Origin: Candidatus Uhrbacteria bacterium
GTDB lineage: Bacteria; Patescibacteriota; Patescibacteriia; UBA9934; GWF2-40-263
Length of the DNA stretch: 36,469 nucleotides
Assembly (NCBI GenBank): GCA_016188495.1
Contig: JACPHU010000027.1
Span: 1 to 36,469 of the forward strand
Direction: 5' to 3'
A model generated the notes under the pieces. The model searched no databases, was not told the DNA's origin, and worked only from the letters and a program-made list of their open reading frames with translations. The position numbers and the translations under genes were made by a program. Positions 4,671 through 6,503 of the stretch are shown here, piece by piece; positions within the stretch are counted from its first letter, which is position 1; every line of letters begins with the position of its first letter.

Positions 4671-5058
4671 AAAAGAAAAAGAGGGCACTGCCCGCTATAA
4701 TAAAATTTTCGGGTGACCCTCATAGGGACTGGAGTGTTGACCTGTTTAGGCATTGGGTTTTGAAATCAACGAAAGTTAATTTTAAAACTCAACGCCCTTA
4801 AGGCACAAACAAGGTCCAGTCAAGAGTGATTTGCTCTGCCGTTTTTACCATTCATTGGTTTTGCTCACAAACGCGCCATAAGGCACGTTATAGGTGTGTG
4901 CTAACCTAGAATTCGCTTTTGTTTTTGTTTTTACTTTCAGAACAGTAAAGACGGTAAGACGTTCCCCGAAAATTCGCACGGGCGTGGGGTGCCCGTAACA
5001 CAAGGTTAATGCGGGTTTCGGAAAACCTCCCAAGAGTTGGTGTAAAAGAACAACTTAC
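4671..5058 (-). ncRNA. Candidate structured non-coding RNA of about 390 nt
   Basis: The minus-strand sequence has a promoter (see 5065-5093), no convincing gene, many hairpins and a terminator. A 10-bp perfect long-range helix joins 4965-4974 (AATTTTCGGG as RNA sense) with 4703-4712 (CCCGAAAATT) and encloses about 250 nt. Inside are TTTACT/AGTAAA, CGTGCC/GGCGCG with a TTAT loop, GACTGGA/TCCAGTC and a 22-bp imperfect hairpin closed by TTTC. Outside are GGTTT/AAACC and ACGGGC/GCCCGT hairpins. The end is GGGCAGTGCCC followed by a T-rich run. I looked for tmRNA (no TTCGA T-loop, no CCA end), RNase P (no GAGGAAAGTC) and SRP RNA signatures and found none. The 62-aa ORF 4845-5033 lies within it and is probably not translated. 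Confidence 0.5.
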
Positions 5059-5064
5059 CCAAGT

Positions 5065-5093
5065 AGTGTATCAAAAAAATGACCTCTGGTCAA
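5065..5093 (-). promoter_or_regulatory. Promoter of the candidate ncRNA
   Basis: On the minus strand TTGACC (5088-5093), exactly 17 nt, then TACACT (5065-5070). The start would be near 5058. Confidence 0.6.
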
Positions 5094-5222
5094 TCTATAT
5101 AATATTCTCTAAAATTAGCCTATTTTTAGGATATTATAATAAATTTTGTGTTCATGTATACAACTGCGTAATGATAGTTTATCCACAGTTTTACTTAATT
5201 ATGAATAGTTTATCCACAGCTA
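5094..5222. other. AT-rich tract with two perfect DnaA boxes (candidate replication origin or DnaA-binding cluster)
   Basis: TTATCCACA occurs at 5179-5187 and again at 5210-5218, same orientation, 31 bp apart (about three helical turns). The 80 bp to the left is very AT-rich. The stop codon of the gene at 5220 adjoins the second box. A DnaA-box pair plus an unwinding-prone tract is the minimal pattern of an origin, but no dnaA, dnaN or gyrase gene is in the window. Confidence 0.4.
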
Positions 5223-6503
5223 ATCAGTACAGAGACGAATTTCCATTGAATACTTTTTAGTTTCAAATGAAATTAAGCCAAATTTAGAGAATATTTTTTC
5301 GTATCCTGAAATAAGACGGTTAAAGGATTCTAATTGAATTTGTGAAAGGAGGACTTCTGGATTTAGGTAATCATGTGCCTTACAAGAATCTTTTTTGCCA
5401 TCAGATAATGGTGTTAGATACTCTTCTATGAAGGTTTGATTGTTCGAGAGGAGAAGTTCGTCATTTTTGAACAGTGCAAGGATAAACTCGTTAGCCCCTC
5501 CCGCGACGCGATACAAGGTTTCCTCGCCTAGTGAGATTTGTTCTACGGGAACCAAATCGGGAGAGACAACAATTTTGTCATATGACGTTCCGTCAGGGAG
5601 TGGAATATTTATAAAGGAAGGTTTTGACAAAGCACCGATGATTTGAAGATTCCTAGTAATATCTTCGTTGGTAAATGAGTGATTTTTGAAAATAAGGAGT
5701 GTGTCTGTAGATGTTTCAGTTTGTCTAAACAGAACACTCATTTCCTGGTTGTTAAGTAATAATGGTTTTTCCCCGCTGTTCTCCTTTAAGAATGAAGCAA
5801 ATAAACGACGTATTGATTCAAAAGAAGAGAGTTCTCCCTCATCCATCACAAGATGGTTGAGGTAAAGGTCGGCATTTTCAACAGTTTTTTGTTTAATATC
5901 GGTTTGTTTGTCGGTTTTAAACTGTATGACTAGGGAAGAATCATTATAATAAATCACCCCTTCTTGATGCTCTTTAGGAAGCACGACTTTTCCGAGCCAT
6001 AGGTTTTTGAACGATGGAAGGAAAGATCTTCTGGTAGAGGTTGGAATCCCGGTAATGGGTAATAATTTTTCAGACAAAAGAATAAAATCTCCCTTTTCTT
6101 GAATAGAGACGTGGTATTTTTCCAGGATGGTTTCAGGTAATTCATTTTTAGTTGCCCTCAATGCCACTGCCTGATCTCCTTGTTGGGTGATGAAAATGGC
6201 CAAATCACCATGGGTGAATGGAAGGAGATCTTCAATGTCTAAGCTTCTTTTTGAAATGAGTGGAACAGAATGAAAAAAATGTTGCCAATGAAGCAGTGTT
6301 TTTTTGGTTAGTTGAAGTTCGATAGCAAAGACCGTTTCCTCAGGCGCCAGGGACAAGAGTGTATCTGCACTAAACCAGATAACGCCTATACGAGAGAGAA
6401 TAAATAAAAAAAATACCAAAACGGCTCCTAATACCCAAACAACCCACCTTTGCCGGCGGGTTGTTTGGGTATATCGAGAAAATGGGATGCGGAGTCTCTC
6501 CAT
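5220..6503 (-). CDS. Membrane-anchored protein of unknown function
   Basis: 427 residues. A short basic N-terminus precedes one hydrophobic segment (about 21-45); the remaining 380 residues are soluble, probably outside the membrane, with alternating beta/alpha character and no catalytic motif I can name. The general form (single anchor, long domain beginning APEETVFAIEL) recalls DUF3352-type proteins, a weak resemblance. The start codon lies 3 nt after the pnp stop, so it is almost certainly translated from the pnp mRNA by coupling. Codons 11-24 form an exact 15-bp inverted repeat (see 6431-6472). Confidence 0.75.
   Translation of the reverse strand: MERLRIPFSRYTQTTRRQRWVVWVLGAVLVFFLFILSRIGVIWFSADTLLSLAPEETVFAIELQLTKKTLLHWQHFFHSVPLISKRSLDIEDLLPFTHGDLAIFITQQGDQAVALRATKNELPETILEKYHVSIQEKGDFILLSEKLLPITGIPTSTRRSFLPSFKNLWLGKVVLPKEHQEGVIYYNDSSLVIQFKTDKQTDIKQKTVENADLYLNHLVMDEGELSSFESIRRLFASFLKENSGEKPLLLNNQEMSVLFRQTETSTDTLLIFKNHSFTNEDITRNLQIIGALSKPSFINIPLPDGTSYDKIVVSPDLVPVEQISLGEETLYRVAGGANEFILALFKNDELLLSNNQTFIEEYLTPLSDGKKDSCKAHDYLNPEVLLSQIQLESFNRLISGYEKIFSKFGLISFETKKYSMEIRLCTD
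6431..6472 (-). repeat. Perfect 15-bp inverted repeat inside the 5' coding region
   Basis: ATACCCAAACAACCC (6431-6445) and GGGTTGTTTGGGTAT (6458-6472) are exact complements around a 12-nt loop. It sits about 30 nt into the gene that follows pnp and would fold very stably in the mRNA. Confidence 0.8.

Follow-up and report, generated by a model that had tools for sequence, protein, structure and literature searches.

A conserved structured RNA of Patescibacteria with DnaA boxes upstream of its promoter

A folded RNA of roughly 390 nt, which matches no family in Rfam and lies behind a strong promoter and a pair of DnaA-binding sites, is conserved across a large class of tiny, mostly uncultured bacteria (Patescibacteria), and is probably an undescribed RNA gene tied to their replication initiator. 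It was found on the minus strand (5093-4671) of the window, a 36,469-nt stretch of Candidatus Uhrbacteria bacterium that constitutes one contig of a 1.19-Mb, 29-contig genome (G000; below, G, C and L denote genomes, contigs and loci, respectively). The original prediction, made from the sequence alone, was of an unassigned structured RNA, either new or strongly diverged from a known one, with its own promoter and terminator and beside a possible cluster of DnaA boxes. The observation is confirmed in our analysis except for one proposed long-range helix, and the interpretation as an unassigned structured RNA is supported by the comparative evidence, which establishes an RNA family. Transcription itself was not examined, as no transcript data were at hand.

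The absence of a match in Rfam and the absence of coding conservation had both been set in advance as conditions that the prediction should survive, and it survived both. At gathering thresholds, Rfam 15 covariance models detect only four tRNAs in the window, and at E <= 10 there is only noise at the locus. Among 20 homologous loci searched at E <= 1, only a tRNA and isolated chance hits were found, none of them shared between relatives at the RNA. The 62-aa ORF on the minus strand (4845-5033) and an 83-aa ORF on the plus strand are not conserved as coding sequences, since only 47 of 309 indels between relatives are multiples of three. The original prediction noted that the size is near that of tmRNA or RNase P RNA. 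However, neither RF00023 nor RF00010 matches the locus, and the genuine tmRNA (G000:C23:42056-42450) and RNase P RNA (G000:C26:10075-10518, 162 bits) are encoded elsewhere in the genome. SRP RNA was found neither in G000 (RF00169) nor in 39 relatives (RF01854), and no S-domain motif is present in the complete genome of G110, a single-contig relative from the class. Pattern searches for Ffh and FtsY gave no credible match, and tblastn with the Escherichia coli proteins detected neither of them in G110, while L19, S16 and TrmD are detected. Thus, no SRP RNA is expected there, and the clade may lack the signal recognition particle pathway. Although the RNA has the right size, is widespread in the class and is present as a single copy, an extremely diverged housekeeping RNA (tmRNA, RNase P RNA or SRP RNA) is a very unlikely explanation.

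The predicted 396-nt transcript folds far better than its shuffled versions (MFE -125.7 kcal/mol; z = -5.35 against 100 dinucleotide shuffles, none as good). To test whether the structure is conserved, we examined compensatory changes in two alignments. In the core alignment of 44 sequences, 92.8% of cells are paired versus 71.4% after shuffling, 24 of 27 pairs show two-sided changes versus 18.2, the score is 0.487 versus 0.171, and pairing collapses to 33-49% when partners are slid by 1-3 columns. Taken together with an earlier core alignment of 30 sequences, the ranges are 92.8-93.7% of cells paired versus 71-74% after shuffling, with two-sided changes in 22-24 of 27 pairs and a collapse when partners are slid by one column; the pairing survives every control. 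In the full-length alignment of 22 sequences, 36 of 58 pairs show two-sided changes versus 22.1 in shuffles, with a score of 0.451 versus 0.222, supporting three domains plus the terminator.

The RNA gene spans positions 4671-5058 (minus strand, as are the features below), with a predicted transcription start near 5058. Domain I (4956-5033) consists of helix P1, formed by GGGAGGTTTTCCGAAA and TTTCGGGGAACGTCTT, with a variable internal hairpin. Domain II (4839-4954) is the core used for the covariance models R1-R3 and contains helix P2 (4954-4940 with 4853-4839), an inner stem GGTT (4906-4903)/AACC (4860-4857) and an apical hairpin. It also carries an A-rich single-stranded strand (AAAAACAAAAACAAAA, 4917-4932), which is near-invariant in most copies but missing in a few GC-rich ones (L053, L055, L057). 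Domain III (4749-4797) is a long covarying hairpin, GGGCGTTGAGTT...AAAACCCAATGCC, in which 13 of 17 pairs have two-sided changes (helix 6). The gene ends with an intrinsic terminator (4671-4720; AGGG...CCCTC plus a T-rich run), the T-run closing the transcript at 4671. The T-run follows GGGCAGTGCCC, as predicted, but the conserved terminator stem is the longer AGGG (from 4720)...CCCT (to 4682) pair set (helix 7). The perfect 10-bp helix enclosing about 250 nt that was originally proposed exists as letters (4704-4713 with 4965-4974, 251 nt apart) but is not the conserved structure. Positions 4965-4974 are part of the 3' strand of P1, which pairs with 5016-5029, so that the two helices compete, and the segment 4704-4713 is not conserved in relatives.

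BLAST searches against 39 relatives identified the RNA, with its conserved core, in many genera; close relatives carrying it are named Candidatus Uhrbacteria or Parcubacteria MAGs. Two of the matches, L017 (G034:C31:7473-7514) and L019 (G017:C4:2327-2357), cover only the promoter region. There, the same promoter signature (AATTAGC..., TTGACAAAAnGTCATTTTTTTGCTAnNAT) precedes unrelated protein genes, suggesting a shared operator or regulon. The core model R1 found a single copy in 20 of 23 genomes of the family (Candidatus Uhrbacteria) and in three genomes from other families of the order, and then in families across the class. The usual neighbour across the class is the gene for a DksA/TraR-type zinc-finger protein (PF01258; 4232-4606 in the window), which is downstream and not part of the RNA. 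The dksA/traR gene is present in 39 of 42 class genomes drawn widely. Of 29 dksA loci, each from a different family, 17 carry the RNA core at E < 0.01, 16 of them upstream of and co-oriented with dksA. Three of these loci were in the training set of the model, leaving 14 of 26 as independent. Model R3, retrained on distant copies, added L118 (2e-5), L107 (0.003) and L112 (0.0035) and, more weakly, L113 and L106, although E-values from these shortened calibrations are rough. By eye, the promoter, leader, A-rich strand and terminator are recognisable in most loci.

Far fewer copies were found outside the class, where 2 of 37 sampled genomes match. Of these, L256 is convincing, with an exact DnaA box, a promoter, a terminator and an lgt-dksA neighbourhood, whereas L255 is weaker and shows neither a DnaA box nor dksA. 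A scan of 381 genomes of the phylum returned only six hits; however, only about nine candidates per genome were scored, so this does not count as absence, and the searches outside the class are not deep enough to set the true boundary of the family. Pattern hits in Bacilli, Natronococcus, Enterococcus, Sphingobacteriaceae and Neomarinimicrobiota were due to chance, since none passed the covariance model. We found nothing relevant in the literature on non-coding RNAs of CPR bacteria, and a survey of ncRNAs in 50 genomes (PMC11109978) does not mention Parcubacteria or CPR.

The co-orientation with dksA raises the possibility that the RNA is a cis-acting leader or attenuator of the downstream dksA-lspA operon. 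This is unlikely, since the RNA ends in its own intrinsic terminator before dksA. Furthermore, dksA is convergent in G074 (L098) and lies 11 kb away in G024, lgt intervenes in L256, and the neighbours in L255 are gmk- and ssb-like genes. Similarly unlikely is a 6S-like RNA, an abundant global regulator that binds RNA polymerase and regulates transcription, replacing the missing 6S RNA and working beside DksA, which also acts on RNA polymerase. In favour of this view, no 6S RNA was found in the genome (RF00013), dksA is the usual neighbour, and the expression signals suggest an abundant RNA. By contrast, RF00013 does not score the RNA, its size differs from that of 6S RNA, and its structure consists of three separate domains rather than one long rod with a central open-promoter-like bubble. 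The Rfam 6S model also misses several known genomes, so that the absence of 6S RNA is weak evidence.

The sigma-70 promoter consists of TTGACC (5093-5088), a 17-nt spacer and TACACT (5070-5065), as originally predicted. In 40 of 48 homologous loci the best promoter-like site scores 10/12 or better, nearly always with a 17-nt spacer, versus 1 of 92 background windows. The suspected DnaA boxes are also real and strongly conserved, with two exact copies of TTATCCACA at 5210-5218 (box 1; TGTGGATAA on the RNA-sense strand) and 5179-5187 (box 2), exactly 31 bp apart. In 39 of 43 loci, one to three exact boxes lie upstream of the promoter, amounting to 63 boxes in 21.6 kb versus 0 in 114 kb elsewhere in the same loci, and where two are found on the RNA strand, the 31-bp spacing holds in 23 of 25 cases. 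Conserved TTGAACACA and GCTAAnnTTAGC elements lie between the boxes and the promoter, and in the window a GCTAAnnTTAGC-like element just upstream of the -35 (5109-5120) is inferred to be a possible operator. In close relatives the -35 box overlaps a palindrome TTGACC-N3-GGTCAA, while others carry TGTGTTCAA in the promoter spacer or upstream (observed among the window, L001-L007, L072 and L085), suggesting possible repressor sites. Directly upstream of the boxes, a 427-aa protein (5220-6503, minus strand) has no Pfam family, with only sub-threshold matches.

The density of boxes could also indicate that the locus is (part of) the chromosomal replication origin, with an AT-rich stretch completing oriC and the RNA being an origin-encoded transcript, as with CcnA in Caulobacter. 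The dnaA gene lies about 5-20 kb from the RNA in G006, G008, G009, G024, G051, G075 and G110 (one genome, G023, has two genes with a DnaA C-terminal domain, at C7:6201 and C4:209833). In G008, the GC-skew minimum (239 kb) is located between dnaA (231 kb) and the RNA (251 kb), and the pair of boxes at the RNA is the only pair of exact boxes within 400 bp in the 400 kb read, although near-consensus boxes also flank dnaA. In G043, however, the skew minimum (798 kb) is near dnaA (810 kb), whereas the RNA, at 677 kb and thus about 121 kb from the minimum, still keeps its box. The skew in G110 and G051 is too weak to be informative, so that the skew maps do not decide the matter: an origin at this locus, tested with GC skew and box maps in G110, G008, G051 and G043, is not supported in G043 and not excluded elsewhere. 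Nevertheless, only one or two exact boxes are usually present, fewer than in a typical oriC, and we consider this explanation unlikely. At least in G043, the boxes follow the RNA promoter rather than the origin.

The promoter is followed by a boxA-like leader (GTTCTTTTACA, 5041-5051). The motif GYTCTTT is found in 25 of 48 leaders versus 0.018 expected per 66-nt stretch, and is close to the gammaproteobacterial boxA consensus GYTCTTTAANA (PMC5725501). The rRNA leaders of G043 and G110 read GGTCTTTGAAAAC and CGTCTTTGACAA, respectively, but a similar element is not obvious in G008, so the comparison with rRNA leaders leaves the assignment as an antitermination site unsettled. NusB is encoded. 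In L059 and L064, which belong to the same genus as G110, a GTTCTTTCCGCC segment lies just 3' of helix P2 instead of in the 5' leader, suggesting that the boxA-like segment may have been moved or duplicated in this lineage.

Collectively, we regard as demonstrated the RNA family, conserved across one class and seen sparsely in other classes of the phylum, together with its three-domain secondary structure, single copy, sigma-70 promoter, terminator and near-fixed pair of upstream DnaA boxes. The best explanation, held with moderate confidence, is a new, stand-alone and probably abundant RNA gene under DnaA control that acts in trans. The remaining steps are inferences of decreasing strength. 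It is likely that DnaA bound at the two boxes sets when or how strongly the promoter fires, so that RNA output follows DnaA activity; the boxes are read from consensus only, and neither DnaA binding nor DnaA-dependent expression was assayed. It is about as likely as not that the boxA-like leader recruits NusB/S10, so that RNA polymerase completes a long untranslated, heavily folded transcript, as in rRNA operons, an inference that likewise rests on the consensus. The finished RNA is inferred to act in trans as a ribonucleoprotein or regulatory scaffold, with the A-rich strand and the conserved P2 junction as contact sites. No protein partner or target RNA was identified, and the trans-acting role rests on the absence of a cis role. 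More tentative still is its most likely task, to feed DnaA or replication status into growth or cell-cycle control.

The closest system in logic, but not in sequence or structure, is CcnA of Caulobacter crescentus (PMC8959179), a cell-cycle ncRNA gene linked to the origin/initiator region, with a promoter carrying a binding site of a cell-cycle regulator. CcnA is 182 nt long, lies within the origin, is presumably activated by CtrA and is proposed to act on target mRNAs, whereas the present RNA is multidomain, about 390 nt long, located under DnaA boxes and, at least in G043, separable from the origin. Large structured bacterial RNAs of unknown or partly known function (OLE, GOLLD, ROOL, raiA) are likewise strongly covarying, stand-alone RNAs of several hundred nucleotides, but no Rfam family scores this RNA or its relatives, and the phylum, promoter and neighbourhood are different. 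As in rRNA operon leaders with boxA (NusB/S10 antitermination), a boxA-like GYTCTTT element shortly follows the promoter of a structured untranslated transcript, but it is not followed by rRNA, and its function as boxA is inferred only.

A broader reading, doubtful but not excluded, is that of a phylum-level housekeeping RNA of Patescibacteria, comparable in reach to tmRNA or 6S RNA within the group, transcribed with rRNA-type antitermination under direct control of DnaA and acting as an RNA arm of replication or cell-cycle control. The alignments and coordinates obtained here are sufficient to look for the RNA in existing metatranscriptomes, and its pair of DnaA boxes makes a direct link between replication initiation and a non-coding RNA testable. 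Large, widely conserved structured bacterial RNAs are rare finds, and most of those understood carry out fundamental tasks; this one, absent from Rfam, is widespread in a class of a huge, mostly uncultured bacterial phylum.
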